A stretch of 50,046 nucleotides of DNA from a virus. This document shows positions 160 to 49,706 of the stretch, one piece after another. The notes under the pieces are model-generated. The model had not been told where the DNA came from. It searched no databases and worked only from the letters and a program-made list of their open reading frames with translations. A program made the translations under genes and the position numbers. Every line of letters starts with the position of its first letter. Position 1 is the stretch's first letter. Where the stretch lies: IMG/VR virus record IMGVR_UViG_3300047994_000044, positions 1 through 50,046 of that record; one strand, 5' to 3'.

Positions 160-165
160 GTCTTG

Positions 166-612
166 ATGAAATGCATATCATTAGAAAAACTATTAGAAGA
201 ATGGCAAGCCGATTCAGTCATTAATACTACAGATCCACAACTAGAAATCGTAAGAATTCCTGTTCTGCATTCTAAATACGTGACTCAAATAACGGCTCAC
301 TCCGTTTCTCTTAAAATGAAGAAATTTGACTTTGATCAATTGAAGAAATTGAAAGTCGAATACTATTCAGGGCGTTTGAACGGCACTGATGTTCTTAAAG
401 AAAAAGGTTGGAAAGCTTTTCCAGCACTGGTAAACAAACCAGATCTAAGTGCCTATCTTGACGCTGATCAAGATTTGATCGATCTGAAGAAAAATATGAT
501 TGCTAACGAAGAAGCCATTTCATTTTGTACGGCTGTTTGTAAAGAGCTTAATTCAAGGACGTTCCAGCTACGTGAATACATGGCTTGGGAAAAATTTATA
601 AGGGGACAATAA
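166..612 (+). CDS. uvsY: UvsY-like recombination mediator
   Basis: The 148-aa product matches the T4 UvsY pattern along its length (T4 protein about 137 aa): an N-terminal LEKLLEEW segment, LHSKYV near residue 36, EYYSGRLNG near residue 65, an AD-D motif before a helical C-terminal half, and a KxFxxG-like end. UvsY loads the recombinase UvsX onto gp32-coated single-stranded DNA during recombination-dependent replication. A TTG at 163 could add one codon, but the ATG at 166 fits the upstream -10 spacing. It precedes uvsW, as in other T4-like phages. Confidence 0.85.
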   Translation: MKCISLEKLLEEWQADSVINTTDPQLEIVRIPVLHSKYVTQITAHSVSLKMKKFDFDQLKKLKVEYYSGRLNGTDVLKEKGWKAFPALVNKPDLSAYLDADQDLIDLKKNMIANEEAISFCTAVCKELNSRTFQLREYMAWEKFIRGQ

Positions 613-773
613 TGTTCTTACTAGGATTCGGATGCGGAGTCATATTTACACTTCTTGTGTCATTCATAATTGCAAGATTTCTTACCAATAGTTTGGGCGG
701 TGCTGCCGGTCTTAGTGATCCTCTTGATGACGAATTGGAAGTAAATGACGGACATTCAACTTCAAAAGATTAA
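612..773 (+). CDS. Small single-pass membrane protein
   Basis: This 53-aa protein starts at an ATG that overlaps the uvsY stop (TAATG) behind a strong Shine-Dalgarno (AAGGGG, 600-605). Residues 1-20 form a hydrophobic segment (MFLLGFGCGVIFTLLVSFII) followed by an acidic C-terminal tail. It is therefore probably an inner-membrane protein with its tail in the cytoplasm or periplasm. It overlaps uvsW by 29 bp. No family is recognised. Position between uvsY and uvsW suggests translational coupling rather than a known role. Confidence 0.75.
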   Translation: MFLLGFGCGVIFTLLVSFIIARFLTNSLGGAAGLSDPLDDELEVNDGHSTSKD

Positions 774-2274
774 TGAAGTTTACACGAAAGTTACAGCAGA
801 TCCAGGCATCGAAAAAGAACTCAGTGAATTCTTCAAATTTCAAAAACCAAACTTTCAATTCACACCAGGTGGAAGAAAAGGCTGGGATGGATACGTCCGT
901 CTATACAATCTTCGAACTCGATACCTCTATAGCGGATTGCTCAAATACCTGTTTGATTTTGCCAGGGAACGTAAGTATACAATTGGATTCAACCGGGAAA
1001 TATTCTTATACAACGATTTTTCAAGATTAGAAGCCAAAGAGTTTCTTAAGAGTTTGAATATCCACAGTCGTGGTGAATCACTTGAAGCCAGGGAATATCA
1101 AGAAATCGGTTTAGCCAAAGCTATTCGTTACAAACGTTTAACCATGATCAGTCCGACTCGATCCGGTAAAAGCTACATGATTTATGGTTACGTTCGATAT
1201 TTACTGGGCAGTAAATGTTCTAGGGGATTGCTCGTGGTTCCTACCACAAGCCTCGTAGAGCAGATGTACACGGACTTCGAGGATTACTCTAGCGCCAACC
1301 AATGGCCGGTACAGGACCGCGTACAGAGGCTTTACGAAGGTTATAGCAATCAGGTGCTCCCAGGCACTCAACTTTTGATATCTACGTGGCAAAGCCTCTA
1401 TAAGCTGCCTAATACGTTCTTTGAACAGTTCGACTACATTATAGGCGACGAAGCCCATACATTTTCAGCTTCCGAGATAGGTAAGGTTGCCGGAAGATGC
1501 GTCAATGCATCTTATCGATTGGCAACTACAGGTACGACCCATGAAGAGGATGTGAATAATCTTAAGGTTGAAGGTTATTTTGGTCCTATTTCAAAACTAA
1601 CCACAACCAAGAAATTAATGGATGATGGACACATTGCTACTTTATCTATTAAAAGTCTTGTTCTTAAATACCCTATCGGTACCAAAGATAAAGTCAGACT
1701 ATTGGTTTCCGGAATCAGTGCCGCTGCCGGTTATAAAGCAGAGATGGACTATATAATCAATTACCTTCCTAGGAATCGATTTATTCGAAATCTAGCCATT
1801 TCTCTCGAAGGTAATACATTGTTGATGTTTCATTATGAAAAACATGGTCGTATAATATACGATCTTATTAAGGATAAATTGAATGGAAGTGCAAGAAAAG
1901 TATACTTTGTTAATGGTACTACGGAAACCGATGTCCGAGAAGAAATCCGTAGAATCGTTGACGGTGAACGAGATGCTATTATCGTGGGATCATTTGTGTT
2001 CAGTACCGGAATTACTATCCGCAACCTACACAACATCATTCTCGCCACACCTACAAAAGCGAAGATCAGAACATTACAAAGTATTGGACGCTCTCTCGGT
2101 CTTGGAGATGGGAAAACAACCGCTACGTTGTACGATATCGCAGACGACTTTAGAGAAAATGCAAGAGACGATTTCAACTACACACTTGACCACTACGTCA
2201 AGCGAATGAAGCTTTACACCAATGAGAAGTTTAATACTTCACACTACGCAATAGAATTAAAGGACCCAAAATGA
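745..2274 (+). CDS. uvsW: UvsW-like DNA/RNA helicase
   Basis: A 509-aa superfamily 2 helicase (T4 UvsW about 503 aa). Visible motifs are an N-terminal DNA-binding region, Walker A SPTRSGKS near residues 135-142, the DEAH box GDEAH near 233-237, motif III TTGT, and motif VI QSIGRSLGLG near the C-terminus. UvsW unwinds R-loops and branched recombination intermediates and shuts off origin-dependent replication late in T4 infection. The start has a GGAAG Shine-Dalgarno inside the preceding gene. It overlaps both neighbours. Confidence 0.93.
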   Translation: MTDIQLQKINEVYTKVTADPGIEKELSEFFKFQKPNFQFTPGGRKGWDGYVRLYNLRTRYLYSGLLKYLFDFARERKYTIGFNREIFLYNDFSRLEAKEFLKSLNIHSRGESLEAREYQEIGLAKAIRYKRLTMISPTRSGKSYMIYGYVRYLLGSKCSRGLLVVPTTSLVEQMYTDFEDYSSANQWPVQDRVQRLYEGYSNQVLPGTQLLISTWQSLYKLPNTFFEQFDYIIGDEAHTFSASEIGKVAGRCVNASYRLATTGTTHEEDVNNLKVEGYFGPISKLTTTKKLMDDGHIATLSIKSLVLKYPIGTKDKVRLLVSGISAAAGYKAEMDYIINYLPRNRFIRNLAISLEGNTLLMFHYEKHGRIIYDLIKDKLNGSARKVYFVNGTTETDVREEIRRIVDGERDAIIVGSFVFSTGITIRNLHNIILATPTKAKIRTLQSIGRSLGLGDGKTTATLYDIADDFRENARDDFNYTLDHYVKRMKLYTNEKFNTSHYAIELKDPK

Positions 2275-2447
2275 CAGCCTCAATCTACATACAAAACAAA
2301 TCGACCCAAGGTGAAGTTCTTGAACTTTTGGCTTTGGACGGAATCCATATCATGGCAACTCTTACACCTGGCCAGTACGTCGAAGTGAAGGCCAAGGATG
2401 GAACTGCTATTACACCGTTCATTACGAGACAGCAAGTCAAGAAGTAA
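2271..2447 (+). CDS. Hypothetical 58-aa protein
   Basis: An ATG at 2271 overlaps the uvsW stop (ATGA) and is preceded by AAAGGACC, a good Shine-Dalgarno. The product is 58 aa, rich in beta-prone residues (VLELLALDGIHIMATLTPG), with a basic VKK end and no cysteines or membrane segment. It is the last gene before the noncoding block at 2448. No family is recognised. Confidence 0.7.
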   Translation: MTASIYIQNKSTQGEVLELLALDGIHIMATLTPGQYVEVKAKDGTAITPFITRQQVKK

Positions 2448-2476
2448 TTGACATTAAAGAAAGTGTTTGTTAAGAT
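2448..2476 (+). promoter_or_regulatory. Sigma70-type promoter TTGACA-N17-TAAGAT
   Basis: TTGACA at 2448-2453 is a perfect -35 hexamer. A 17-bp spacer leads to TAAGAT at 2471-2476, which predicts a start near 2483. It begins one base after the preceding stop codon and drives the noncoding region that follows, and perhaps the late sigma gene at 2914. Confidence 0.8.
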
Positions 2477-2482
2477 AAGTTT

Positions 2483-2890
2483 ATATTAAGCATACAACTA
2501 GCCTTTGAGCACCGGTTCATCGAACCAAACATACCTTGCCATACGACGCTCGATTGCAGATCGAGAGATTTCCAGATTATCCGTGAAAGCCGTTCGTCTG
2601 GATCTTACATGCGTGAGAAGGGTTACATACACACACGCTAGGGACTCAAGTAGACAGGAAACCCGAAGTATGTTGGTCAGAGTTCTGAAGGCCATTAAGT
2701 AGTCCTGTCGGCAGGTTGGGGGTTGTACCTAAGAACCCTAGTGAAATGTCACTCCTGGTCCTGAGATTAACTGCAATTAAGTTTGCTAGGTTAATCCTAT
2801 GACCATCAGTGAAATATAAGTGTTAATATCCTATTAGGTATTATAGTTACTTAGACGGTTTCTATTCATTATGAATTTCGTGACCACAAT
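2483..2890 (+). ncRNA. Long structured noncoding RNA region
   Basis: This 400-base stretch has no credible CDS but many local inverted repeats: GGTTC/GAACC (2514-2518, 2522-2526), CTCGAT/ATCGAG (2549-2554, 2560-2565), CCTG-TCGG-CAGG (2704-2715), GGGTT/AACCC (2720-2724, 2734-2738), GTGA/TCAC (2741-2752) and GATTAAC/GTTAATC (2765-2771, 2790-2796). It starts at a consensus promoter. There is no clear U-tailed terminator, so the RNA may run into the gp55-like gene as a long leader. Function unknown. No Rfam family is recognised by eye. Confidence 0.6.
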
Positions 2891-2913
2891 AAAAATAATA
2901 AAGGTCTTTCATA

Positions 2914-3528
2914 ATGACATCCAAGTTCATCCCAGAACTAAGCACCACATCCAAAGATACAACTCCATATGTCAACAACAAAGAAATGTTGGCAGCTATC
3001 ACTCAATATCGTAAAGAGTGTCGAGCAGCTAAGAGAGCCAAGTTACCTAAACCAAAGATTCCTGATTCTATTGGCAAACAAATTCAATTGATTGCTATTA
3101 ATCTTTCACATAAGCCTAATTTTAGTCAATACACTTTCAAAGCAGACATGATTGGTGATGCTATTGAAAATTGTATTATGTACTTTGATAACTTTGATCC
3201 TAAGAAGTCCAAGTATCCATTTGCTTACTTTTCTAAAATTACTTTTTATGCGTTTGTTCGTAGAATCCAACGTGAAAAGAAGCATCTCTACATCAAATAC
3301 AAAGCTACACAGCAAGCCGGTGTCCTTCACGATGCCGAATACAGTGATGAAGACAATCCAGGTGAACAGTTTGAGCTATACGAGAACATCACTGACTTCA
3401 TTGGTAAGTATGAAGAATCTCAGGAACGTGCTAAAGCCAAGAAGGCGCTTCCTAAAAAGAAAAAGGGATTGGAGATAGCCATGGAAGATGAAGTATCTCT
3501 GGAATCTATTGAAGAAACCAATGAGTGA
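2914..3528 (+). CDS. 55: gp55-like late sigma factor
   Basis: The 204-aa protein resembles T4 gp55 (about 185 aa), a minimal sigma factor that directs host RNA polymerase to late promoters together with gp33 and the sliding clamp. The sigma region 2 signature is visible around residues 70-130: MIGDAIENCIMYFDNFDP followed by FAYFSKITFYAFVRRIQREK. The tail is acidic and lysine-rich. The leader carries AAAGGTC as Shine-Dalgarno, flanked by GACC and GGTC that could pair. TAAATA boxes elsewhere in the window are candidate targets. Confidence 0.85.
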   Translation: MTSKFIPELSTTSKDTTPYVNNKEMLAAITQYRKECRAAKRAKLPKPKIPDSIGKQIQLIAINLSHKPNFSQYTFKADMIGDAIENCIMYFDNFDPKKSKYPFAYFSKITFYAFVRRIQREKKHLYIKYKATQQAGVLHDAEYSDEDNPGEQFELYENITDFIGKYEESQERAKAKKALPKKKKGLEIAMEDEVSLESIEETNE

Positions 3529-4109: not shown

Positions 4110-4472
4110 ATGAAGAAAATCCGCATTGGAATAACAGGTGGTCGAGACTACGCCAACGAAGCCAAGGTTAGACATGTTTTAGACTTGGCCTATAGTCGTT
4201 TAGAAGACAAGATGTTTCTTGTGGTGGGTTGTGCTCGCGGTGCTGACAAACATGCTCGCACCTGGGCCGCTGATACTCTTCCTCCAGACCAATATGAGAT
4301 TTACAAAGCCGATTGGGACACCTACGGTAAGGCAGCTGGTCATCTCAGAAACAAAGAGATGGCAACGTCCGGATTGAAACTCTTGATTGCCTTTCCTGGC
4401 GGCACAGGTACTGCCAACATGAAAAAGCAATGCGCTGATTTAGGCATCAAGATTTTGGAGATTAAAGAATGA
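4110..4472 (+). CDS. SLOG/YspA-like Rossmann-fold protein
   Basis: A 120-aa protein with the hallmarks of the DUF2493/YspA-type SLOG family: GITGGRDY at residues 7-14, a VVGCARGADKHA motif near 37-48, and LIAFPGGTGTANM near 90-102. These loops bind nucleotide-like ligands in related proteins. In phages the family is proposed to sense or process nucleotide-derived ligands, but the exact role is not established. It precedes gp47 with an ATGA overlap. Confidence 0.75.
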   Translation: MKKIRIGITGGRDYANEAKVRHVLDLAYSRLEDKMFLVVGCARGADKHARTWAADTLPPDQYEIYKADWDTYGKAAGHLRNKEMATSGLKLLIAFPGGTGTANMKKQCADLGIKILEIKE

Positions 4473-5527
4473 AGTATGCAATCTTAGGTGATACTCACTT
4501 TGGATGTCGTAATGATAGCCAGCATTTCCACGACAACTTTGCTAAGTTCTATCAAGAAACTTTCTTTGCAACTATAGTAAAACTTGGTATTAGGGATATT
4601 ATCCAGACTGGTGATTTATTTGACCGTCGTAAATTTATTAATTTTCAAAGTTTGAATCGCGCCCGCGAGTATTTCTTTCATAGTTTATATGATCAAAATA
4701 TGCACATGATTACCTATATTGGGAATCATGATTGTTACTACAAGAATACTCTGCAAATTAATTCCCCACGGCTGCTGTTGTCCGACTACAAGAATTACAT
4801 TACCATCATTGATAAACCGACAACTATTGATGGTATGGATTTTTTCCCATGGATTTGTGCAGATAATCAAGCTGAGACGAATAAGCTTATTGCTGAGTCT
4901 AGATCTCAGATAGCTTTCGGTCATTTTGAATTGACTGGTTTCGAAATGGATGCAGGTGTTCCTTGTATTCACGGTATGAACAGAGATGAACTGAAAAAGT
5001 ATGATATGGTCATCAGCGGTCACTTTCATCACCGTTCAAGTGATGGACATATCTTTTATGTCGGTTCACCATACGAAATGACATGGGCAGACTTCGATGA
5101 TCCGCGTGGCTTCCACATCTTCGATACGGAAACGAGGACATTAGAATTTATAGAGAATCCACACAAGATGTTCTACAAAGTAGCTTATGATGATACTAAT
5201 GAAAATATCAATACGATTGATGCCAAGGACTATGCTGAATTTAAAGACAAGTATGTCAAAGTAGTCGTTAAAAAGAAAAACAGTCACATGTTGTTTGATC
5301 GATTCATCAACAACTTTTATGAACATGAACCGGCTGATTTGAACATTGTTGAAGACTTTACTGATTACAAGGTCGCGGAGACGTTGACTGATAATGTCGA
5401 TCAGGCCGAGCAAACTCATGTCCTATTGGAAAAATATGTTGATGCTGTCGATATGGCATTGGATAAAACTAAAATGAAATCTGTCATGAGACAGATATAC
5501 GACAAGGCACAGAATGGTAGTCTTTAA
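4469..5527 (+). CDS. 47: gp47-like recombination nuclease subunit (SbcD/Mre11 type)
   Basis: The 352-aa metallophosphoesterase carries GDTHFG near residue 8, GDLFDRR near 48, GNHD near 86 and GHFHH near 183, the metal-binding motifs of Mre11/SbcD nucleases. T4 gp47 is about 339 aa and forms the MR complex with gp46, which resects DNA ends for recombination-dependent replication. It overlaps the gp46 gene by 14 bp, which supports co-translation of the two subunits. Confidence 0.93.
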   Translation: MKYAILGDTHFGCRNDSQHFHDNFAKFYQETFFATIVKLGIRDIIQTGDLFDRRKFINFQSLNRAREYFFHSLYDQNMHMITYIGNHDCYYKNTLQINSPRLLLSDYKNYITIIDKPTTIDGMDFFPWICADNQAETNKLIAESRSQIAFGHFELTGFEMDAGVPCIHGMNRDELKKYDMVISGHFHHRSSDGHIFYVGSPYEMTWADFDDPRGFHIFDTETRTLEFIENPHKMFYKVAYDDTNENINTIDAKDYAEFKDKYVKVVVKKKNSHMLFDRFINNFYEHEPADLNIVEDFTDYKVAETLTDNVDQAEQTHVLLEKYVDAVDMALDKTKMKSVMRQIYDKAQNGSL

Positions 5528-10338: not shown

Positions 10339-11661
10339 ATGGAGAAAAAAGTGGAAGCATTAGAAATTGAGTCTGAAGCAAAAGGTCATGCGACCAAGAC
10401 TTTGGAAGATGATTTCATTCCGGAAATCGATCCTCTCTATGTTCCATTTGGCTTCTTCAATGACCTTAAAAGCATCATTGAGAAGAAGATTTTCTACAGT
10501 GTCTACATCACCGGCTTGTCTGGTAATGGCAAGACAAAGATGGTCGAACAAGCATGTGCTCAGGCTAAGCGCGAGTACATCCGTGTCAACATCACAAAAG
10601 AGACAGACGAATTCGACTTGATTGGTGCCTATGAACTGATCGAGGGTAATACGGTATGGCGCGACGGTCCTGTGTTGGTTGCCCTTCGCAGGGGCGCTCT
10701 CCTATTGCTAGACGAAGTCGATTTGGGCAGCGAGCGATTGCTTTGCCTACAGCCGATCCTTGAGGGTGTCGGCTATTTTAACAAGAAGCGTGGTGAGTTC
10801 ATTCCACCAGCACCTGGTTTCAATGTCATGGCGACTGCCAACACCAAAGGTAAGGGTTCAAACGATGGCAAATTCATTGGTGCCAACGTTTTGAATGAGG
10901 CGTTCCTTGAACGTTTTGCTATTACTGTCGAACAAGACTATCCGTCTGAAAAGACTGAACGTGTGATTCTTAATAACATGTTCAATTCATTGGAAACTAC
11001 TCCTGGTATGAATACGGCCAAGTTTTCTGCTAATCTCGTGAAATGGGCAGAACTATTAAGACAATCATACAAGCAAGGTGCTACCGACGAAGTGATCACA
11101 ACTCGTCGTTTGGTTCACATTGTCAAGGCATATTCAATCTTTAGGAATCGTCGCAAGGCAATCGAATTGTGTCTGAATCGTTTTGACGAAGAAATCAAGA
11201 CAGCTTTTATGGATTTCTATAGCAAGATCGATCCAGATTTGGACAAGAAGATTGTTGAGCCTGGTGAAGCTGATGTTAAACCACTGCCTGACGACGTATC
11301 CAATGCGTCTAATGACCTCGTAGCCAAGCGTAAGGCAGCACAGGCAGCAGCACAGGCAGCAGGAGCAAAAGCAGCCTCTGCGACCGCACAGTCCAATTTA
11401 CAGAACCCTACGGGCCTGGTTGTGTTTGCTGATGCAAGAAACATCGCTTCAGTCGTTTCTAAGCATAAAGTTGCTGTAGCTGTTAGTAAGCCAGACCCTA
11501 AGACAGGTGACCGCACCGTAACTGTCATGGGACAAAATGTTGTTGTGAGAGCCGGTGATATTATTAATGCTAAGCATGATTTGTTAGACGATATTGTTAA
11601 GAGAATAGTTGACAGCGTGAATGATATGGATAATGATGTTGATACTGGAGATGACGACTAA
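10339..11661 (+). CDS. MoxR/CobS-like AAA+ ATPase
   Basis: A 440-aa ATPase with Walker A GLSGNGKT near residues 58-65, Walker B ALLLLDEVDL near 119-128, a sensor-1-like VMATANT, and an arginine-finger region LERFAITV, typical of the MoxR/CobS clade. Residues about 330-355 form an alanine-rich linker (AAQAAAQAAGAKAAS) leading to a separate C-terminal domain and an acidic end. The partner is almost certainly the VWA protein upstream. Such pairs remodel metal-loading or multi-subunit complexes. Its own candidate promoter lies at 10293. Confidence 0.85.
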   Translation: MEKKVEALEIESEAKGHATKTLEDDFIPEIDPLYVPFGFFNDLKSIIEKKIFYSVYITGLSGNGKTKMVEQACAQAKREYIRVNITKETDEFDLIGAYELIEGNTVWRDGPVLVALRRGALLLLDEVDLGSERLLCLQPILEGVGYFNKKRGEFIPPAPGFNVMATANTKGKGSNDGKFIGANVLNEAFLERFAITVEQDYPSEKTERVILNNMFNSLETTPGMNTAKFSANLVKWAELLRQSYKQGATDEVITTRRLVHIVKAYSIFRNRRKAIELCLNRFDEEIKTAFMDFYSKIDPDLDKKIVEPGEADVKPLPDDVSNASNDLVAKRKAAQAAAQAAGAKAASATAQSNLQNPTGLVVFADARNIASVVSKHKVAVAVSKPDPKTGDRTVTVMGQNVVVRAGDIINAKHDLLDDIVKRIVDSVNDMDNDVDTGDDD

Positions 11662-11739
11662 AGGAGCAATTATGAAGTAACTCAAGTCATTTAATATTAA
11701 TGTAAATTAAAATTGCATAGGGTAAGAAAAGTGAAAACG

Positions 11740-11837
11740 GAGCATAAGAACCAGGACTTACACTGGGTGATATTGCACCGGCCCAAGAAAAGGTATTGCC
11801 AGATGCATAAAGGCGTCAGTTCCTTATAGCACTGCTC
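11740..11837 (+). ncRNA. Compact structured RNA after the AAA+ gene
   Basis: A closing helix is formed by GAGC (11740-11743) with GCTC (11834-11837), extended by ATAAG-AAC (11744-11751) with GTTcCTTAT (11819-11827). Inside lie CCAG/CTGG (11751-11766) and GGTG/CACC (11766-11779) hairpins and GCC/GGC near 11798-11814. The element sits between a stop codon and an intrinsic terminator, so it is either a 3'-UTR-derived RNA or an independent ncRNA. No ORF of note is present. The remaining bases of 11662-11956 hold only the terminator and promoter listed next. Confidence 0.55.
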
Positions 11838-11852
11838 TAAACCTAGTAGATC

Positions 11853-11887
11853 AAAACCCAGGCGCGTCCGTGCGTCCTGGGTTTTCT
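11853..11887 (+). terminator. Strong intrinsic terminator
   Basis: AAAACCCAGG (11853-11862) pairs with CCTGGGTTTT (11876-11885), extended by CGC/GCG inside. The 3' arm ends in TTTT. It closes the deformylase/VWA/AAA+ operon. Confidence 0.9.
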
Positions 11888-11889
11888 AT

Positions 11890-11918
11890 TTGACAATTAA
11901 AGCGAATTAGACAATAAT
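11890..11918 (+). promoter_or_regulatory. Sigma70-type promoter TTGACA-N17-AATAAT
   Basis: TTGACA at 11890-11895 starts five bases after the terminator stem. A 17-bp spacer leads to AATAAT at 11913-11918, and a start near 11925 would give a leader of about 32 nt for the gene at 11957. Confidence 0.75.
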
Positions 11919-11956
11919 AGTACCTAGAATTCTGACAACAATAAAAAGGTCCTATA

Positions 11957-44746: not shown

Positions 44747-45067
44747 ACTTTGGAAGCTGGAAATCCGTCGAGGAAACTCGTGAAGCCAGCATCAATTTCT
44801 CAAGCATTCTTTGGATTCCATTGAATGACCTTGGTCGCCCTCACCACCTAAATCAGGTTGGACTAAAACGTGTCCAGCATTGTTAAGTACCTATTAGGGA
44901 AACACGATGTAAAGCAGGGAAACTCTAACGCGGGGAACGTTGGTTCGAATCCAACAGGTTCATCTATACCGGCTCTCGAAAACGTACCGAGATTCAAGTG
45001 CTCACGCACGCGACCGGCGAGCCTTCGTCTAGTGGCCCAGGACACCCGCACTTTATTTTCGATTTAT
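44747..45067 (+). other. Structured tRNA-like and tRNA-remnant region
   Basis: No protein gene is seen. Visible pieces are: GCTGG/CCAGC around CGAG-gaaa-CTCG (44756-44790); TGGAC/GTCCA (near 44869-44878); a canonical T-arm GTTGG-TTCGAAT-CCAAC (44939-44955) with no matching acceptor 5' strand except a poor one at 44886; TCTCG/CGAGA (44973-44991); and a tRNA-Glu-like 5' half with TTCGTCTAGTGGCCCAGGAC at 45024-45043. I read these as decayed or rearranged tRNA genes. Confidence 0.5.
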
Positions 45068-45139
45068 TCCAGTAGACGCGCAAGGTGTGCGGGATCGCTG
45101 TTAACGATTTGTGGCAAGGTTCGATTCCTTGTGCTGGAG
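45068..45139 (+). tRNA. tRNA-Asn (GTT)
   Basis: Acceptor TCCAGTA/TGCTGGA, discriminator G. The anticodon arm GATCG-CTGTTAA-CGATT gives GTT. T-arm CAAGG-TTCGATT-CCTTG. No CCA is encoded, unlike most tRNAs of this island. The D-stem is short (CGC/GCG). Confidence 0.8.
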
Positions 45140-45270
45140 AAAATTAACGCGGAACTGTTGACTAAGGCTGACAACCTAAACATCGACTCGTCATCGTATG
45201 TGCCAACAGTTCCATTATTGAATCCTAATGTCCGAGTCCGGATCGTGAGACTAACACGTAAAAAAGATCT
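45140..45270 (+). other. Structured spacer with a 10-bp stem, no tRNA assigned
   Basis: GGAACTGTTG (from 45151) pairs perfectly with CAACAGTTCC (ending 45213), enclosing about 43 nt with a TAAGG-CTGACAA-CCTAA loop like an anticodon arm. A TCCG-AGTC-CGGA hairpin follows near 45231. There is no T-arm consensus or CCA. Possibly a degenerate tRNA. Confidence 0.4.
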
Positions 45271-45341
45271 GTCCTCGAAGACAAACGGTAAGTCGCCCGA
45301 ATTTGAATCGGGAGAAGCAGGTTCAATTCCTGTCAAGGATC
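45271..45341 (+). tRNA. tRNA-Gln (TTG), first copy
   Basis: Acceptor GTCCTCG/CAAGGAT with one C-A mismatch. The anticodon arm CCCGA-ATTTGAA-TCGGG gives TTG. T-arm GCAGG-TTCAATT-CCTGT. D-stem of 3 bp (GAC/GTC). No CCA is encoded. Confidence 0.7.
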
Positions 45342-45343
45342 TT

Positions 45344-45398
45344 GCAGGGTTTTATCCATAACATTAGAAACGCTTCACCCTGGCGCGGATTGTTATGG
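45344..45398 (+). ncRNA. Candidate H-type pseudoknot
   Basis: CAGGG (45345-45349) can pair with CCCTG (45378-45382), and CCATAAC (45356-45362) with GTTATGG (45392-45398). The two helices cross, which makes a pseudoknot directly between tRNA-Gln and tRNA-Lys. Confidence 0.4.
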
Positions 45399-45406
45399 TC
45401 TTATTC

Positions 45407-45482
45407 GGGTCTGTCGTATAACGGCTATTATATCTCCCTCTTAAGGAGCACGATCAGGGTTCAAATCCCTGCGGACCCACCA
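45407..45482 (+). tRNA. tRNA-Lys (CTT)
   Basis: Acceptor GGGTCTG/CGGACCC, discriminator A, CCA encoded. Anticodon loop CTCTTAA gives CTT. T-arm CAGGG-TTCAAAT-CCCTG. Confidence 0.85.
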
Positions 45483-45488
45483 AAATTT

Positions 45489-45562
45489 GGGCTGTTAGTT
45501 AAATGGGATAACAGTGGCCTTGCAAGTCACTATTGAGAGTTCGATTCTCTCACGGTCCACCA
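45489..45562 (+). tRNA. tRNA-Ala (TGC)
   Basis: Acceptor GGGCTGT/ACGGTCC, A, CCA encoded. Anticodon arm GTGGC-CTTGCAA-GTCAC gives TGC. T-arm GAGAG-TTCGATT-CTCTC. Confidence 0.88.
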
Positions 45563-45602
45563 AATACGTGTTGTCGGTACTAGAGTAGAGAACCGTCGTT
45601 AC

Positions 45603-45677
45603 GCTCTCAAAGCATTGTTGGCGATGCACGGGTTTTGTAAGCCTGAGAACTCAGTTCGATTCCGAGTGAGAGCACCA
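45603..45677 (+). tRNA. tRNA-Thr (TGT)
   Basis: Acceptor GCTCTCA/TGAGAGC perfect, A, CCA encoded. Anticodon arm CGGGT-TTTGTAA-GCCTG gives TGT. D-arm GCAT/ATGC. The T-stem has one mismatch. The 40 nt before it (45563-45602) hold a CGGT/ACCG hairpin only. Confidence 0.88.
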
Positions 45678-45683
45678 ATTTAT

Positions 45684-45760
45684 GGGTTGTTCGTCTACGT
45701 TGGCTAAGACCGTAGTCTCCAAAACTATCAAAGGCGGATCGTCACCGTCACAACCTGCCA
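45684..45760 (+). tRNA. tRNA-Trp (CCA)
   Basis: Acceptor GGGTTGT/ACAACCT, G, CCA encoded. Anticodon arm GTAGT-CTCCAAA-ACTAT gives CCA. The T-arm GGCGG-ATCGTCA-CCGTC has a non-standard loop instead of TTCGAAT. Confidence 0.8.
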
Positions 45761-45794
45761 CTAAATACTCCAAACAACAAAATAAGGTTTGGAG
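45761..45794 (+). promoter_or_regulatory. TAAATA late-type box fused to a hairpin that hides the HNH ribosome site
   Basis: CTAAATA (45761-45767) is followed by CTCCAAAC (45768-45775) pairing with GTTTGGAG (45787-45794), which contains the GGAG of the ORF at 45797. A late start near 45774 would remove the 5' arm. The layout is like the regulation known for the T4 homing endonuclease I-TevI. Confidence 0.65.
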
Positions 45795-45796
45795 TC

Positions 45797-46143
45797 ATGT
45801 CGATAAGAAATATAAAAAAAGTCAGACAATCTCGTAGAGATTGGTACGCTAAGAACCAACAACATGCAATCTCTAAAATCAAAGAAAGACGATCTATATT
45901 GAAAGAATGGATTCAAGAATTCAAAAAAATTTAATGTGCGCTAAATGTGGACAAAATCATCCGGCAACATTGCAATTTCATCATTCTGATCCATCACAAA
46001 AAGATATTGAAATTAGCCAAATGCATAAGCAAGGCTATTCAATTCATAGGATGAAAGAAGAAATCGCGAAGTGCGTTGTGCTGCGTGCCAATTGTCACGC
46101 TATCGTACACTACGAAGAAAGAAATAATCTCGCTGTGGTATAG
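45797..46143 (+). pseudogene. HNH endonuclease split by a frameshift
   Basis: Frame one (45797-45934) encodes the N-terminal basic helix (RRDWYAKNQQHAISKIKERR). A run of seven A (45923-45929) precedes its stop. The -1 frame continues as NLMCAKCGQNHPATLQFHH...KCVVLRANCHAIVHYEE, an HNH/zinc core, to 46143. The second zinc pair reads RxxC where CxxC is expected (one base change). Frameshift plus lost zinc ligand indicate decay, though slippage on A7 could restore the frame. It sits inside the tRNA island, and its 3' end overlaps tRNA-Arg. Confidence 0.8.
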
Positions 46144-46203
46144 AGGATGTGCCTTGAGCTTCTACCTCAATGAACGTCGGTTCGAATCCGGCCAGCGGGT
46201 CCA
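46129..46203 (+). tRNA. tRNA-Arg (TCT)
   Basis: Acceptor CTCGCTG/CAGCGGG, T, CCA encoded. Anticodon arm TTGAG-CTTCTAC-CTCAA gives TCT. T-arm GTCGG-TTCGAAT-CCGGC. Its first 15 bases are also the last codons of the HNH reading frame. Confidence 0.85.
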
Positions 46204-46210
46204 AAATTAT

Positions 46211-46301
46211 GGTGCAGTAAAACCCTTAAGGATGGGGACCGGTCTGTAAAACCGGTGAGCCTAATAAGCCTAGCCAGGATCGTTACCTGGATGCACCACC
46301 A
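46211..46301 (+). tRNA. tRNA-Tyr (GTA)
   Basis: Acceptor GGTGCAG/ATGCACC (one mismatch), A, CCA encoded. Anticodon arm CCGGT-CTGTAAA-ACCGG gives GTA. A long variable arm is present as expected for bacterial Tyr. T-loop ATCGTTA. Confidence 0.85.
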
Positions 46302-46306
46302 AATTC

Positions 46307-46402
46307 GGTCCTATAGTTTAATGGTTAAAACACCACCCTTATAAAGTGGCTTTGGCGGCAGATTACCGCATGATCCAGGTTCGAGTCCTGGTGGGACTAC
46401 CA
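46307..46402 (+). tRNA. tRNA-Ile (TAT) with an unusual long variable arm
   Basis: Acceptor GGTCCTA/TGGGACT, A, CCA encoded. Anticodon loop CTTATAA gives TAT. The variable region is about 25 nt with a GCGG/CCGC helix, a class II feature not expected for Ile. T-arm CCAGG-TTCGAGT-CCTGG. Confidence 0.7.
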
Positions 46403-46406
46403 AATC

Positions 46407-46485
46407 GCCTCTGTAGCAGAATTGGCATATGCACTGCACTTAAAACGCGGGTTACTTGCGGGTTCGACTCCCGCTGGAGGCACCA
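46407..46485 (+). tRNA. tRNA-Leu (TAA)
   Basis: Acceptor GCCTCTG/TGGAGGC, A, CCA encoded. Anticodon loop CTTAAAA gives TAA. T-arm GCGGG-TTCGACT-CCCGC. The variable region is short for Leu. Confidence 0.82.
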
Positions 46486-46491
46486 AACAAA

Positions 46492-46574
46492 GTCTCTATC
46501 TTGCGGGTAGAGACAGCCCACCACCCGGCAGGAGTGGGCATTACGGTTGCCGCAAGCAACACCGGATGACGTAA
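46492..46574 (+). ncRNA. Structured RNA with candidate kissing loops
   Basis: Hairpins GTCTCTA/TAGAGAC (46492-46514), GCCCAC/GTGGGC (46516-46539) and GTTGC-CGCAA-GCAAC (46546-46560), the last enclosed by TTACG/CGTAA (46541-46574). Loop 1 contains TTGCG (46501-46505), complementary to the CGCAA loop. No tRNA features or ORF. Confidence 0.6.
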
Positions 46575-46591
46575 CCGGTTCAATATATTTT

Positions 46592-46667
46592 CAGGGTGTC
46601 GGTTAGCGGCTATACCACATGCCTTGGGCGCATGGAATCGCGAGTTCGAGTCTCGCCACCTTGACCA
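46592..46667 (+). tRNA. tRNA-Pro (TGG), first copy
   Basis: Acceptor CAGGGTG/CACCTTG, A, CCA encoded. Anticodon arm CATGC-CTTGGGC-GCATG gives TGG. T-arm GCGAG-TTCGAGT-CTCGC. Confidence 0.88.
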
Positions 46668-46676
46668 CGATCATAC

Positions 46677-46761
46677 GATAGCAAAGATCTACAAGTAGCT
46701 ATCCAGGCTGAACCATTTCGTAGCCTCTCTCGGTTCAGTATGGTGAGAGGGTGAGTAGATC
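46677..46761 (+). ncRNA. Candidate double-pseudoknot RNA
   Basis: GATAGC/GCTATC (46677-46682, 46698-46703) encloses GATCTAC (46686-46692), which pairs with GTAGATC (46755-46761). CTGAACC/GGTTCAG (46708-46714, 46732-46738) encloses CCTCTC (46724-46729), which pairs with GAGAGG (46745-46750). All four helices are perfect and two pairs cross. No ORF or tRNA features. Confidence 0.65.
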
Positions 46762-46774
46762 ACATTTTAATTTT

Positions 46775-46861
46775 CTAGTTTTCAAAAACTAGATGGTGGA
46801 GTGGTTAGACTTAGGTCTGCCCCAAAAATGCGCTAAAGCCGACGCTAAAATATCGGATTAT
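46775..46861 (+). other. tRNA-like remnant
   Basis: Contains a D-arm-like GGTGGAGTGGTTAGACTTAG (from 46794) and a CCGA/TCGG hairpin but no T-arm or CCA. It is preceded by CTAGTTT/AAACTAG (46777-46794). Probably the 5' part of a lost Leu- or Ser-type tRNA. Confidence 0.4.
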
Positions 46862-46936
46862 GCTCTGTTAGATTACCGGCTAGATCGACGCCCTTTCAAG
46901 GCGTAGGAAGGGGATCGACACCCCTACGGAGTACCA
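46862..46936 (+). tRNA. tRNA-Glu (TTC)
   Basis: Acceptor GCTCTGT/ACGGAGT, A, CCA encoded. Anticodon arm ACGCC-CTTTCAA-GGCGT gives TTC. T-arm AGGGG-ATCGACA-CCCCT, with a non-standard loop. Confidence 0.85.
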
Positions 46937-46942
46937 ATTTAT

Positions 46943-47017
46943 GCGGATGTGGTACAAAGGCTGTGCCCCTGGCTTCCAACCAAGAGTATACGAGTTCGAG
47001 TCTCGTCTTCCGCTCCA
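46943..47017 (+). tRNA. tRNA-Gly (TCC)
   Basis: Acceptor GCGGATG/CTTCCGC (one mismatch), T, CCA encoded. Anticodon loop CTTCCAA gives TCC. T-arm ACGAG-TTCGAGT-CTCGT. Confidence 0.87.
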
Positions 47018-47022
47018 ATTTC

Positions 47023-47106
47023 GGTTCTGTAGCTCAATAGTAGAGCGTCAGGTTAGATAGCATCAAACCAGAAGGCTATGCGGTTCAAATCCCATCAGAG
47101 CCACCA
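47023..47106 (+). tRNA. tRNA of uncertain identity with enlarged anticodon arm
   Basis: Acceptor GGTTCTG/CAGAGCC, A, CCA encoded; D-arm GCTC/GAGC. The anticodon arm is 25 nt: TCAGGTT pairs with AACCAGA (one mismatch) around an 11-nt loop AGATAGCATCA that holds CAT and GCA triplets. The T-stem needs a bulged C. It could be Met, Cys or a decayed gene. Confidence 0.55.
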
Positions 47107-47113
47107 AGTTTAT

Positions 47114-47196
47114 TCTCTTGTAGCTCAATATCGAGAGCTTACTGCCGTTTTCGCGAACGGTAAGTGATGGAGGTCCGAATCCTTCCGAGAGAGCCA
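47114..47196 (+). tRNA. tRNA of uncertain identity with extended, bulged anticodon arm
   Basis: Acceptor TCTCTTG/CGAGAGA, G, CCA encoded; D-stem GCTC/GAGC but a D-loop without GG. The anticodon arm is about 25 nt: TTAC/GTAA and CGTT/AACG separated by a 3-nt bulge with loop TTCGCG. The anticodon cannot be assigned. T-arm GGAGG-TCCGAAT-CCTTC. Confidence 0.5.
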
Positions 47197-47201
47197 ATTA
47201 C

Positions 47202-47277
47202 GTCCCGGTAGCACAATGGATAATGTTTACGCCTCCTAAGCGTTAAGGTACAGGTTCGATTCCTGTTCGGGACACCA
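47202..47277 (+). tRNA. tRNA-Arg (CCT)
   Basis: Acceptor GTCCCGG/TCGGGAC, A, CCA encoded. Anticodon loop CTCCTAA gives CCT. T-arm ACAGG-TTCGATT-CCTGT. Confidence 0.87.
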
Positions 47278-47283
47278 ATTTAT

Positions 47284-47358
47284 TGACCCTTAGCTCAGAG
47301 GCAGAGCGTTGTCTTTACACGGCAAAAGTCGAGATTTCGAAATTCTCAGGGTCAACCA
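47284..47358 (+). tRNA. tRNA-Val (TAC)
   Basis: Acceptor TGACCCT/AGGGTCA perfect, A, CCA encoded. Anticodon arm TTGTC-TTTACAC-GGCAA gives TAC. T-arm GAGAT-TTCGAAA-TTCTC with one mismatch. Confidence 0.85.
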
Positions 47359-47364
47359 CTTTAT

Positions 47365-47412
47365 GCGGCACGGTTCTAGAGCTTACGACACTAACCTGTC
47401 GGTGCCGCTCCA
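47365..47412 (+). other. 48-nt mini-tRNA: acceptor stem plus T-arm-like hairpin
   Basis: GCGGCAC (47365-47371) pairs perfectly with GTGCCGC (47402-47408), followed by T and an encoded CCA. Stacked on it is CGACA-CTAACC-TGTCG. D-arm and anticodon arm are absent and replaced by a 14-nt linker. The usual island linkers flank it on both sides. Confidence 0.6.
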
Positions 47413-47416
47413 ATTC

Positions 47417-47492
47417 GGGTCCTTAACTCAAATGGAAAGAGTCACGCCTTTTAAGCGCAGAGATGTGGGATCATACCCCACAGGACCCACCA
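47417..47492 (+). tRNA. tRNA-Lys (TTT)
   Basis: Acceptor GGGTCCT/AGGACCC perfect, A, CCA encoded. Anticodon loop CTTTTAA gives TTT, with a weak stem (two mismatches). T-arm GTGGG-ATCATAC-CCCAC, with a non-standard loop. Confidence 0.8.
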
Positions 47493-47512
47493 ATCAGTAA
47501 GGAGATTTTCTC

Positions 47513-47665
47513 ATGGCTCAGATCACTAGAAAATATCCAATCGTAGTAGACGGTAAACACATCACTCGATGCACAGTCGTTGATGGTGGAAAAACTGTCC
47601 AAGTCTACTTTCTTGATGAATCAGGAAAGAGATTTAATTCTCTACGAGAATTGCTTTCACTTTAA
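47513..47665 (+). CDS. Hypothetical 50-aa protein inside the tRNA island
   Basis: ATG at 47513 behind AAGGAG (47498-47503) at proper spacing; stop TAA at 47663-47665. The product is 50 aa, beta-rich then helical (ITRKYPIVVDGKHITRCTVV and KRFNSLRELLSL). It lies between tRNA-Lys and tRNA-Ile. No family is recognised. The good ribosome site and intact frame support expression. Confidence 0.65.
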   Translation: MAQITRKYPIVVDGKHITRCTVVDGGKTVQVYFLDESGKRFNSLRELLSL

Positions 47666-47668
47666 TAT

Positions 47669-47743
47669 GCGTCTATCGTCCAATGGCAAAGACATCTGCC
47701 TGATTAGCGGAGAATCGCGGTTCGAGTCCGTGTAGACGTACCA
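47669..47743 (+). tRNA. tRNA-Ile (GAT)
   Basis: Acceptor GCGTCTA/TAGACGT, A, CCA encoded. Anticodon arm TCTGC-CTGATTA-GCGGA gives GAT. T-arm CGCGG-TTCGAGT-CCGTG. Confidence 0.87.
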
Positions 47744-47749
47744 CTTTAT

Positions 47750-47824
47750 GGTCCCATGATCTAATGGCTATGATTTCTCTCTGTCTAAGAGAAAGTAGGA
47801 GTTCGATTCTCCTTGGGATCGCCA
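47750..47824 (+). tRNA. tRNA-Asp (GTC)
   Basis: Acceptor GGTCCCA/TGGGATC, G, CCA encoded. Anticodon arm TCTCT-CTGTCTA-AGAGA gives GTC. T-arm AGGAG-TTCGATT-CTCCT. Confidence 0.9.
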
Positions 47825-47831
47825 AGTTTAT

Positions 47832-47907
47832 TCACTGTTCGTCTAATTGGTAGGACGCTTCGCTTTGAACGAGGAAAATGTACGTTCGAATCGTACACGG
47901 TGATCCA
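47832..47907 (+). tRNA. tRNA-Gln (TTG), second copy
   Basis: Acceptor TCACTGT/ACGGTGA, T, CCA encoded. Anticodon arm CTTCG-CTTTGAA-CGAGG gives TTG. T-arm GTACG-TTCGAAT-CGTAC. Confidence 0.88.
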
Positions 47908-47917
47908 ATTTAAGTTC

Positions 47918-47994
47918 GCCCAATTGATGGAATTGGCATACATACGAATCTCAAAAATTCGGTTTTGCGAGTTCGACTCTCGCATTGGGCACCA
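47918..47994 (+). tRNA. tRNA-Leu (CAA)
   Basis: Acceptor GCCCAAT/ATTGGGC perfect, A, CCA encoded. Anticodon arm CGAAT-CTCAAAA-ATTCG gives CAA. T-arm GCGAG-TTCGACT-CTCGC. Short variable region. Confidence 0.87.
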
Positions 47995-47997
47995 AAC

Positions 47998-48061
47998 GTG
48001 CGAGCCGCTAGACAAATCTAAGCGGGACACAAAAGTCGTGATTGACCCAGGTCATTCACGC
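47998..48061 (+). ncRNA. Two-hairpin structured spacer RNA
   Basis: A bulged hairpin CCGCTAG/CTAAGCGG near 48006-48031, then a long hairpin CGTGA-t-TGAC-CCAG-GTCA-t-TCACG near 48043-48061. It lies between tRNA-Leu and tRNA-Pro. No ORF or tRNA features. Confidence 0.45.
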
Positions 48062-48065
48062 ATCT

Positions 48066-48139
48066 CAGGGTAAAGCGTTACGGTAGCGTTCGAGTTTTGG
48101 AAGCTCGCGGCGCAGGTTCAACTCCTGCTATCCTGACCA
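48066..48139 (+). tRNA. tRNA-Pro (TGG), second copy
   Basis: Acceptor CAGGGTA/TATCCTG, A, CCA encoded. Anticodon arm CGAGT-TTTGGAA-GCTCG gives TGG. T-arm GCAGG-TTCAACT-CCTGC. The D-stem is poor. Confidence 0.8.
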
Positions 48140-48188
48140 TTTAGTGAAACACACCAGGCAATTAGAGCCAAAATGTCTTTCTTTATTT

Positions 48189-48295
48189 CCCGAAGTAGCT
48201 CAAAAGAAGATTGTTTGATCACATGTCCGGGTGGATCATTTAAAAGAGCGTCGTCCTTGCCGACGAAGGTGGTGCAAATCCATTCTGAGGGGCCA
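48189..48295 (+). tRNA. tRNA-like gene with a D-loop of about 44 nt
   Basis: Acceptor CCCGAAG/CTGAGGG (two mismatches), G, CCA encoded. D-stem GCTC/GAGC encloses a 44-nt loop with a TGATC/GATCA hairpin. Anticodon stem CGTCG/CGACG is perfect with loop TCCTTGC (CTT if read as standard). T-arm GGTGG-TGCAAAT-CCATT. Probably decayed or carrying an insertion. Confidence 0.45.
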
Positions 48296-48300
48296 AATTT

Positions 48301-48375
48301 GTTCCTATCTTCTAGAGGCTAGGATGTGGGTTTCTCAGTCCCACGACGAGGGTTCGATTCCCTCTAGGAACACCA
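48301..48375 (+). tRNA. tRNA-Glu (CTC)
   Basis: Acceptor GTTCCTA/TAGGAAC perfect, A, CCA encoded. Anticodon loop TTCTCAG gives CTC. The D-arm is Glu-like. T-arm GAGGG-TTCGATT-CCCTC. Confidence 0.85.
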
Positions 48376-48382
48376 AGTTTAT

Positions 48383-48456
48383 TCATCCTTCGTACAGCGG
48401 CAGTACCCTACTCTCTGAAAGTAGTGACCTAAGTTCGAATCTTAGAGGATGATCCA
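48383..48456 (+). tRNA. tRNA-Gln (CTG)
   Basis: Acceptor TCATCCT/AGGATGA perfect, T, CCA encoded. Anticodon arm CTACT-CTCTGAA-AGTAG gives CTG. T-arm CTAAG-TTCGAAT-CTTAG. Confidence 0.9.
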
Positions 48457-48462
48457 ATTTAT

Positions 48463-48538
48463 GGCGACTATAGTGTAATGGTTAGCACCACTCTCTGTGA
48501 AAGAGTCAGTACGGGTTCAAGTCCCGTTAGCCGCCCCA
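48463..48538 (+). tRNA. tRNA-His (GTG) with encoded G-1
   Basis: Acceptor GCGACTA/TAGCCGC (one mismatch) plus a G at -1 opposite discriminator C, the His signature. Anticodon arm ACTCT-CTGTGAA-AGAGT gives GTG. CCA encoded. Confidence 0.9.
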
Positions 48539-48543
48539 ATTTT

Positions 48544-48629
48544 GGAAGTGTATCTCGTCTGGGATGAGGGCAGTCTTGAAAACTGATCGCTGGTTCGCTA
48601 GTGGCGTTCGATTCGTCACACTTCCGCCA
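48544..48629 (+). tRNA. tRNA-Ser (TGA)
   Basis: Acceptor GGAAGTG/CACTTCC perfect, G, CCA encoded. Anticodon loop CTTGAAA gives TGA. Long variable arm. T-arm TGGCG-TTCGATT-CGTCA, the same as in the next tRNA. Confidence 0.87.
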
Positions 48630-48633
48630 ATTT

Positions 48634-48719
48634 GGAAAGTTATAGAGACTGGGTCTCTGAGTGTCTAGAAAGCACATCGCAGGGAAACTTGTGGCGTTCG
48701 ATTCGTCAGCTTTCCGCCA
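48634..48719 (+). tRNA. tRNA-Ser (AGA)
   Basis: Acceptor GGAAAGT/GCTTTCC, G, CCA encoded. Loop CTAGAAA gives AGA (A at position 34). Long variable arm. It shares its T-arm with the preceding Ser tRNA, which indicates duplication. A Phe GAA reading is possible but fits the stem less well. Confidence 0.72.
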
Positions 48720-48725
48720 AATTAT

Positions 48726-48802
48726 GCGCTTGTGATGAAATTGGCAAACATGTTTGGCTTAGAACCAAAATCTTGCAGGTTCGACTCCTGTCAGGCGCAC
48801 CA
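48726..48802 (+). tRNA. tRNA-Leu (TAG)
   Basis: Acceptor GCGCTTG/CAGGCGC, A, CCA encoded. Anticodon arm TTTGG-CTTAGAA-CCAAA gives TAG. T-arm GCAGG-TTCGACT-CCTGT. Confidence 0.88.
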
Positions 48803-48811
48803 ATTTTATTT

Positions 48812-48888
48812 GCCCAGTTGACGGAATTGGCATACGTACCAGTCTAAGAAGCTGGGTTTTGAGGGTTCGACTCCCTCATTGGGCACCA
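48812..48888 (+). tRNA. tRNA-Leu (AAG)
   Basis: Acceptor GCCCAGT/ATTGGGC, A, CCA encoded. Anticodon arm CCAGT-CTAAGAA-GCTGG gives AAG (A at position 34, rare in bacteria). Similar overall to tRNA-Leu (CAA) at 47918. Confidence 0.85.
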
Positions 48889-48893
48889 AATTT

Positions 48894-48969
48894 GGAACTG
48901 TAGCTGAGGTGGCTTTAGCGTGTCCCTGAAGAGGACGAGATGTAGGTTCGACTCCTACCAGTTCCACCA
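48894..48969 (+). tRNA. tRNA-Phe (GAA)
   Basis: Acceptor GGAACTG/CAGTTCC perfect, A, CCA encoded. Anticodon arm TGTCC-CTGAAGA-GGACG gives GAA. T-arm GTAGG-TTCGACT-CCTAC. Confidence 0.88.
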
Positions 48970-48977
48970 ATTACTTC

Positions 48978-49030
48978 TCAACGAGCGTCAGTGTTTGTAG
49001 AGACGAATGGTATTATTCGTAAAATACTCG
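48978..49030 (+). ncRNA. Structured spacer between tRNA-Phe and tRNA-Met
   Basis: CGAG/CTCG encloses ACGAAT-ggtatt-ATTCGT, a 6-bp hairpin. No ORF or tRNA features are seen in 48970-49060. Confidence 0.4.
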
Positions 49031-49060
49031 CACGGGCAGCGATAGGTCCCAACAATTTAC

Positions 49061-49135
49061 GGTGATATCGTCCAACGGCTAGGGCAGTGGTCTCATAAGC
49101 CATAGATCTGAGTTCGATTCTCAGTATCACCACCA
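49061..49135 (+). tRNA. tRNA-Met (CAT), first copy
   Basis: Acceptor GGTGATA/TATCACC perfect, A, CCA encoded. Anticodon loop CTCATAA gives CAT. T-arm CTGAG-TTCGATT-CTCAG. Confidence 0.88.
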
Positions 49136-49476
49136 GTTTAATGTGATGTTTGGGTTGGTTTTTTGTGACTGATAAACTGCGTTCTTCGGCAGGAAGGTAC
49201 TTCTCACGGGCTGTCGAGAAGGTTTGAGTATGATTAGGTAAGGTAATGACAGAAAGTAACAGGAAAAAGACGGAACCCGCCTGTGATCGCTGCGTAGTTG
49301 GTAGACCATAAACAGTCAGAAGACGACTACGTTGGAGGAAAATTCCTCTCATATCTGCGAAACTTTGTTGCAACAGAGTGGAGATGTGTAAGTCATAAAC
49401 CCACCGGACCTAAAAAGAAAGATAGTAGCTTGACAACTACTCGAAAAATCAGCACCAAACATCATATAAAGATTAT
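49136..49476 (+). other. 341-nt noncoding stretch with hairpins
   Basis: No protein gene is supported. Visible are CTTCTC/GAGAAG (near 49200-49223), CGTAGT/ACTACG (near 49291-49333), GAGG/CCTC (near 49336-49349), a TGTTGCAACA palindrome (near 49364) and AGTAG-CTTGACAA-CTACT (near 49425), which looks like an anticodon arm. No T-arm consensus is present. Possibly decayed tRNA genes or unprocessed structured RNA. Confidence 0.4.
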
Positions 49477-49549
49477 AGCGGGGAAGTCGAAAAAGTTGAC
49501 GACAGGCTCATAACCTGTAGAACTGGAGCATTACCAGCGACCGCTACCA
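49477..49549 (+). tRNA. tRNA-Met or tRNA-Ile2 (CAT), second CAT copy
   Basis: Acceptor AGCGGGG/GACCGCT (five pairs, two mismatches), A, CCA encoded. Anticodon arm ACAGG-CTCATAA-CCTGT gives CAT. T-arm CTGG-AGCATTA-CCAG with a non-standard loop. Initiator GGG/CCC pairs are absent, so a lysidine-modified Ile is possible. Confidence 0.65.
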
Positions 49550-49630
49550 AAATCGTCATGGCGAGTGTTTATCTGTTAGGCTTAGGCAAACCAGATGATC
49601 CTACATGAACTGGAAACGTAACCAGTATCT

Positions 49631-49706
49631 CTCCTTGTGGTGAAACCGGATATCACGAAACGCTACGAACGTTTTATTCCAGATTCGAGTTCTGGCAAGG
49701 GGACCA
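49631..49706 (+). tRNA. tRNA-Arg (ACG)
   Basis: Acceptor CTCCTTG/CAAGGGG, A, CCA encoded. Anticodon arm AAACG-CTACGAA-CGTTT gives ACG. T-arm CCAGA-TTCGAGT-TCTGG. Before it, 49550-49630 holds ACTGG/CCAGT and ATCTG/CAGAT hairpins only. Confidence 0.87.

Follow-up and report, generated by a model that had tools for sequence, protein, structure and literature searches.

Several described phage elements invite comparison with the locus analyzed here. The large RNAs GOLLD and ROOL are often located near tRNA islands, according to PMC12286853. For bacteriophage T4, PMC3014915 mentions two RNAs without an assigned role (RNAC and RNAD), reports translational control by helices for genes e, soc, 49 and I-TevI, and states that no small trans-acting T4 RNA has been functionally characterized and that relatives may offer candidates. 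Among T4 replication origins, oriE combines an early promoter with 12-nt direct repeats, while oriF and oriG join a promoter to an A+T-rich unwinding element at which the R-loop needs no specific sequence, and shifts in base composition occur at several of the origins (PMC3016281). A literature search that covered few subscription papers pointed to no structured RNA between uvsW and gp55.

The DNA studied here (hereafter the window) is a virus record of 50,046 bases that represents the contig of a T4-like phage, and a stretch of about 370 bases upstream of its gp55-like gene looks like a candidate for a new structured RNA. It shares with GOLLD and ROOL the fact of being phage-encoded, large and non-coding. 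Unlike them, it measures only ~370 nt, lies 42 kb away from the tRNA cluster (45067-49998) and shows no sign of extensive ornate structure. That cluster is large, with 30 tRNAs according to ARAGORN and 27 plus added sites at 45271 and 47023 according to Rfam. RNAC and RNAD can be likened to the stretch by description alone, as phage RNAs lacking an assigned role, but they derive from the T4 tRNA region, which is not the case here. The explanation we favor, at a probability of roughly 45%, is that of a new RNA module of ~370 nt that is co-transcribed with gp55, functions independently as an RNA and has been swapped among phages.

The gap upstream of gp55 and its promoter

Scans of IMG/VR contigs identified five further clade members with a non-coding stretch at this place, so that the clade comprises the window, L002, L003, L084 (the same as L165), L005 (G002) and L004 (G001). 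The L084/L165 contig ends within the RNA, and the break of the G001 contig lies in the gap. The features of the locus are collected in Table 1. Leaving aside the region that begins at 44474, in which the tRNA cluster lies, the gap is the longest non-coding one of the window. The small gene preceding it, orf58, is 95, 67 and 48% identical in L002, L003 and L165, respectively, has no Pfam or PHROG match and was not found in 50,697 phage records.

Table 1. Features of the uvsY-gp55 region (window coordinates unless stated otherwise).
Feature	Position	Strand	Remarks
uvsY (recombination mediator)	163..612	+	Pfam PF11056 1.5e-22, phrog_231
uvsW helicase	745..2274	+	Pfam UvsW_N, phrog_16 DNA helicase
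orf58, small conserved protein	2271..2447	+	stop abuts promoter
Non-coding gap	2448-2913		466 nt; between orf58 and gp55
Sigma-70-type promoter	2448..2476	+	TTGACA-N17-TAAGAT with extended -10, directly at orf58 stop
Candidate RNA core	2483..2853	+	no CDS; unrelated sequence in L002; putative 5' end ~7 nt past -10
3' domain common to L003	2711..2820	+	includes GCAGGTTGGGGGTTGTACCTA (2711-2731); local score vs shuffles
3' hairpin	2746..2815	+	pairs 2749-2753/2808-2812, 2756-2760/2801-2805, 2765-2771/2790-2796
Stacked helices, window	2749-2753/2808-2812 and 2756-2760/2801-2805		
Stacked helices, L003 (own coordinates)	4545-4553/4613-4621 and 4555-4559/4607-4611		
TAGTTACT	2844..2851	+	identical 8-mer in L002 and L003, just past the RNA
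Local hairpin over gp55 start	2865..2917	+	holds AUG; 2866-2874/2909-2917 and 2882-2885/2903-2906
gp55-like late sigma factor	2914..3528	+	phrog_234 E 2e-56; tblastn to T4-like phages

An earlier, sequence-only reading of this DNA had described a region free of coding sequence between a promoter and a gp55-like gene, and on these points it was right: the downstream gene is assigned to the late sigma factors, and no convincing coding sequence exists in the gap. The sole ORFs of at least 40 aa fully within the latter are a 65-aa ORF with a TTG start (2505-2702, + strand) and another of 65 aa on the opposite strand. Listings for the homologous stretch of L002 and L003 contain only short, differing ORFs, and the block common to L002 and L165 shows no conservation of reading frames in an alignment read by eye. 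A protein-coding origin of the gap was hence rejected for want of a conserved frame.

Such a gap is not a general property of T4-like phages. The more distant relatives examined carry a protein ORF at its position, mostly of 120-150 aa, and P-SSM2 (with T4-GC 139) and HTVC008M likewise hold one between uvsW and gp55. The ORF at 4488-4886 of L036 represents this protein, which occupies the same place in most T4-like relatives and is missing from the clade. ORF-free stretches reach 300 nt or more in 2 of 205 unique uvsW-gp55 intervals and 200 nt or more in 15, a count in which L002 scored just 220 owing to a 50-aa ORF that we do not believe. L308, with 388 nt, was discarded as a clade member since it looks A/T-rich and without such a promoter, and three of the five contigs retrieved with a pattern derived from L002 (L163, L164 and L166) proved unrelated. 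A gp55 scan of the genome collection gave no relative and the RNA pattern no match there, and comparison of the window, L002, L003 and L005 RNAs with the 50,697 phage records returned short chance pieces or nothing. Two models, R1 (L002/L165) and R2 (window/L003, sequence only), recovered their own members alone in 50 chosen sources totaling 519,262 bases.

The promoter of the sequence-only reading is confirmed as a TTGACA -35 element (2448-2453) separated by a 17-nt spacer from TAAGAT (2471-2476), which matches the -10 consensus at four of six positions and is preceded by TG. On the + strand of the 50-kb window, the strict definition TTGAC[AT]-N16-18-TAnnnT fits two sites alone, 2448 and 44029. 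Five of the six clade members (window, L002, L003, L005 and L165) have the form TTGAC[A/T]-N17-TAnnnT right where the gene before it ends, G001 being the one without it there, and 19 of the 205 intervals contain such a site. A consensus promoter sits shortly upstream of gp55, no more than 90 nt from its match, in several distant relatives, among them L141, L150, L159, L226 and L310. These sites make it probable that the promoter at 2448 serves gp55 early, and suggest that the RNA has its place between promoter and gene. No terminator or other 3' boundary was found between the RNA core and gp55, so that transcription probably continues into the latter.

The gp55 start and the possibility of a cis-acting leader

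The sequence-only reading had proposed either an independent non-coding RNA or a very long leader of gp55, and its interpretation is supported in part. A long structured 5' leader would act in cis by delaying or tuning the translation of gp55, and would thereby time the onset of late transcription. We regard this as possible but doubtful. The missing terminator and the gp55-near promoters of distant relatives speak for a leader, as does the predicted pairing of the gp55 AUG, which with an unpaired probability of 0.0 is the most paired of 52 window starts; the T4 genes controlled by start helices provide a precedent (PMC3014915). The energy needed to open this start is ordinary, however, since 22 of the 51 other starts have values as high. 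The outer helix of the start hairpin pairs perfectly in the window and in L002, but it is shorter in L003 and absent from L004 and L005, with predicted unpaired probabilities of the AUG of 0.0 in both window and L002, 0.14 in L003, 0.5 in L004 and 0.87 in L005. The hairpin is local and forms without the RNA upstream, which in the window is thus predicted to leave it unaffected: the accessibility predicted for the start of gp55 hardly differs between the full leader and one from which the 370-nt RNA was removed (0.54 and 0.54 in the window, 0.46 and 0.55 in L002). In L003 and L005, moreover, a protein ORF intervenes between the RNA and gp55, which argues that the module is not tied to this gene. 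The ORF in L005 (4586-4930, 114 aa) has a weak match to PF13588, the N-terminus of type I restriction enzyme R subunits (3.6e-05, just under the curated cut-off).

The window hairpin resembles the T4 translational-control hairpins in that the start codon of a seemingly early-transcribed gene lies within a helix; it differs from them in the 370-nt RNA that precedes it with no change in predicted accessibility, and in a 5' arm in which no late promoter was found. Inspection of 2820-2913 revealed neither CTAAATA nor TATAAAT, a further point against the leader, and TATGAAT was rejected as a late promoter in the start hairpin because it is not enriched before genes. In positions 70001-110000 of the G002 contig, CTAAATA occurs in the 90 nt before 6 of 43 ORFs, versus 0.3 expected, and is a possible late promoter of the clade.

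Folding, known families and the conserved hairpin

The region had also been described as structured, with six or more exact hairpins, a description that holds only in part. Exact inverted repeats of short length do occur (14 pairs with a seed of 6), but the global fold cannot be told from that of shuffled sequences: z is -0.93 for 2480-2913, with 19 of 100 shuffles equally stable, and -0.88 in a second run over 388 nt (38 of 200); the opposite strand reaches -2.0 (3 of 100). Since shuffle folding tests may give poor scores to large RNAs with pseudoknots, the global result speaks neither for nor against a complex fold. The 3' hairpin alone exceeds chance: its best 80-nt window has a z of -4.86, a value reached by 0 of 60 control stretches taken from the window. 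The best local folds of L002, L003, L005 and G001 are equaled by 5, 11, 7 and 24 of 60 controls, respectively, and in four of five members the best-folding 80-nt window lies about two thirds along the RNA.

Two stacked helices of this hairpin are present in both the window and L003, where they are flanked by the common strings GATTAAC and ATATAAG. All 10 comparable base pairs, counted from the letters, have changed on both sides. These counts rest on the anchor strings, MAFFT alignments of window and L003 having been left out because they leave the hairpin arms unaligned. Shuffling of the flanks yields such a helix pair in 298 (window) and 174 (L003) of 20,000 trials; as many as the 14 pairs that L003 has arise in 5 of 20,000. 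Covariation statistics call for more than the two sequences available for each RNA type. As a comparison of two sequences only, the hairpin with its two-sided changes is the best evidence for a function as RNA (or as single-stranded DNA). A lack of conserved structure among relatives would have counted against the sequence-only reading; since the 3' hairpin is kept in L003, such structure does exist, in two sequences and not in a family.

Membership in GOLLD or ROOL was not supported, as the search of Rfam 15 with the window and four relatives gave no usable match. The gap region has no match at gathering thresholds and positions 2300-3000 none at E values up to 10; L002, L003, L005 and L171 produced only sub-threshold chance matches (E up to 10), and none of 16 relatives had a match at gathering. 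ARAGORN detected no tRNA or tmRNA in L002, L003, L005, L165 or the gap region of the window. An antisense role toward other window transcripts was rejected, given that the longest complement, 11 nt, equals that of shuffles. The RNA region shows no similarity to a second non-coding region of the window (11645-11856).

This second non-coding stretch (11662-11956, 295 nt) is an observation in its own right. It follows a promoter TTGACA-17-AATGAT (11609-11637) and contains a strong intrinsic-terminator-like hairpin, AAAACCCAGG...CCTGGGTTTT, at ~11856-11887, with another promoter, TTGACA-17-AATAAT, at 11890-11918. Its Rfam matches are chance ones (E 3.5 and 8.3) and its fold z is -2.1. The segment 11609-11918 is a candidate for a small RNA gene with both ends.

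Probable exchange of RNA types among close relatives

The window and L002 are nearly identical around the gap (uvsW DNA 97.0%, or 1484/1530; orf58 92.7%; gp55-proximal flank 63/70), and a 481-base window query matches L002 in blastn at its two edges alone. The cores in between are unrelated, with a score of 27 versus 32.4 for shuffles, 868 of 1000 of which do as well. The L002 core is instead related to that of L165, with 61 of 71 bases identical and a score of 112 reached by none of 1000 shuffles, in phages whose uvsW DNA is 70.0% identical; this 86% should be read with caution, since 2.9% of the 71-column uvsW stretches in the L002-L084 comparison are as similar. Likewise, the 3' domain of the window is related to that of L003 (local score 50 against 20.6 +/- 3.9 for shuffles, attained by 0 of 1000, or by 3 of 1000 with another scoring), while the 5' domains are at best weakly so (24 of 1000 with one scoring, 965 of 1000 with the other).

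The window/L002, L003 and L084 lineages are roughly equidistant in uvsW (68-70%), and yet the L002 core resembles that of L084 and the window 3' domain that of L003. RNA type hence does not track phage kinship, which points to RNA cassettes exchanged behind a fixed promoter, a term we use because promoter and gp55-proximal flank have stayed in place. Judging from these comparisons, either at least one exchange occurred, or both types were present in an ancestor and one of them was lost in each line; the RNA lengths show no sign of a two-type ancestor with later losses. Finding an unrelated RNA in the same slot of a near-identical virus hints at a swappable RNA part, and this allelic replacement between close relatives goes beyond what the sequence-only reading had envisaged. 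Elsewhere, a YspA/SLOG-type protein of the window (4110-4472, PF10686) is only 57% identical to its L002 counterpart although other genes are close, which makes it a second variable spot.

Unrelated cores are also what one would expect if the early promoter of gp55 were followed by a mere spacer, neutral or scarred by recombination, in which hairpins arise by chance. This alternative, which we hold to be very unlikely, agrees with the ordinary global fold and with a locus that accepts inserts, such as the small ORF of L003, the restriction-like ORF of L005 and the insert of L084. It does not account for the L002/L165 block, more similar than uvsW on average, for the retention of the 3' hairpin with two-sided changes, or for the length of the gap, which is conspicuous in a compact genome. 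The L084 insert (4516-5221), whose small ORFs separate uvsW from the orf58 homolog, looks GC-richer than its surroundings and was possibly acquired recently.

The most improbable of the alternatives considered is an R-loop replication origin, where the transcript would prime leading-strand synthesis and an A/T-rich stretch behind it would unwind. The T4 origins cited above resemble the locus in having a promoter followed by a non-coding A/T-rich stretch with uvsW and uvsY nearby, and tandem repeats lie just past the RNA in two relatives, a 10-mer in L003 (4649-4681, TGTATTATAC x3.3) and a 12-mer in G001 (L004 1-57, TTTGATTTTATC x4.8, the contig end falling within its own array). The window and L002, however, have no tandem repeats at this place, and T4 oriF lies at the uvsY start and is transcribed toward a convergent uvsW, whereas here the site is downstream of uvsW. 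GC skew over 20 kb on each side rises from 0.007 to 0.052 in G001 (Mann-Whitney p 0.013) and from -0.003 to 0.034 in G002 (p 0.055), but this shift is weak: the contrast at the locus ranks just 4th and 9th of 40 in G001 and G002, respectively, and free change points in G001 fall elsewhere. In addition, an origin indifferent to sequence needs no conservation, while the L002/L165 RNA block exceeds the uvsW average.

A proposed swappable RNA module next to the late sigma gene

The RNA module is the explanation favored by the placement of the promoter, the lack of a conserved ORF, the conservation of one RNA type beyond that of coding sequence and the hairpin with two-sided changes. As we envisage it, a small clade of T4-like phages carries the module with an early-type host promoter on one side and gp55 on the other. 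RNA polymerase would start at about 2483, transcribe the module and, with no terminator in its way, read through into gp55. The RNA would probably be freed by processing near the A/T-rich stretch past the 3' hairpin, and might then act in trans at an early stage of infection. The comparison of relatives indicates that modules were swapped; the proposed route is recombination in the conserved flanks, at the promoter and at gp55, and this would be why unrelated modules sit in the same slot.

A more specific version, which we think unlikely, sees the slot as an RNA specificity locus whose unrelated structured RNAs are exchangeable alleles that act in trans, early, against a host defense, a host factor or a competing phage; in this version, the alleles would be kept because each RNA acts in trans early. 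If true, diversifying selection would be at work on an RNA that a T4-type phage employs in trans. The locus is a candidate for the kind of small trans-acting RNA that T4 relatives may offer. Two natural alleles under an unchanged promoter, in near-identical surroundings and beside the gene that switches on late transcription, provide a handle for direct comparison. Should the transcript turn out to be a leader or to belong to an origin instead, it would still mean that the late-sigma gene has a new control element beside it.
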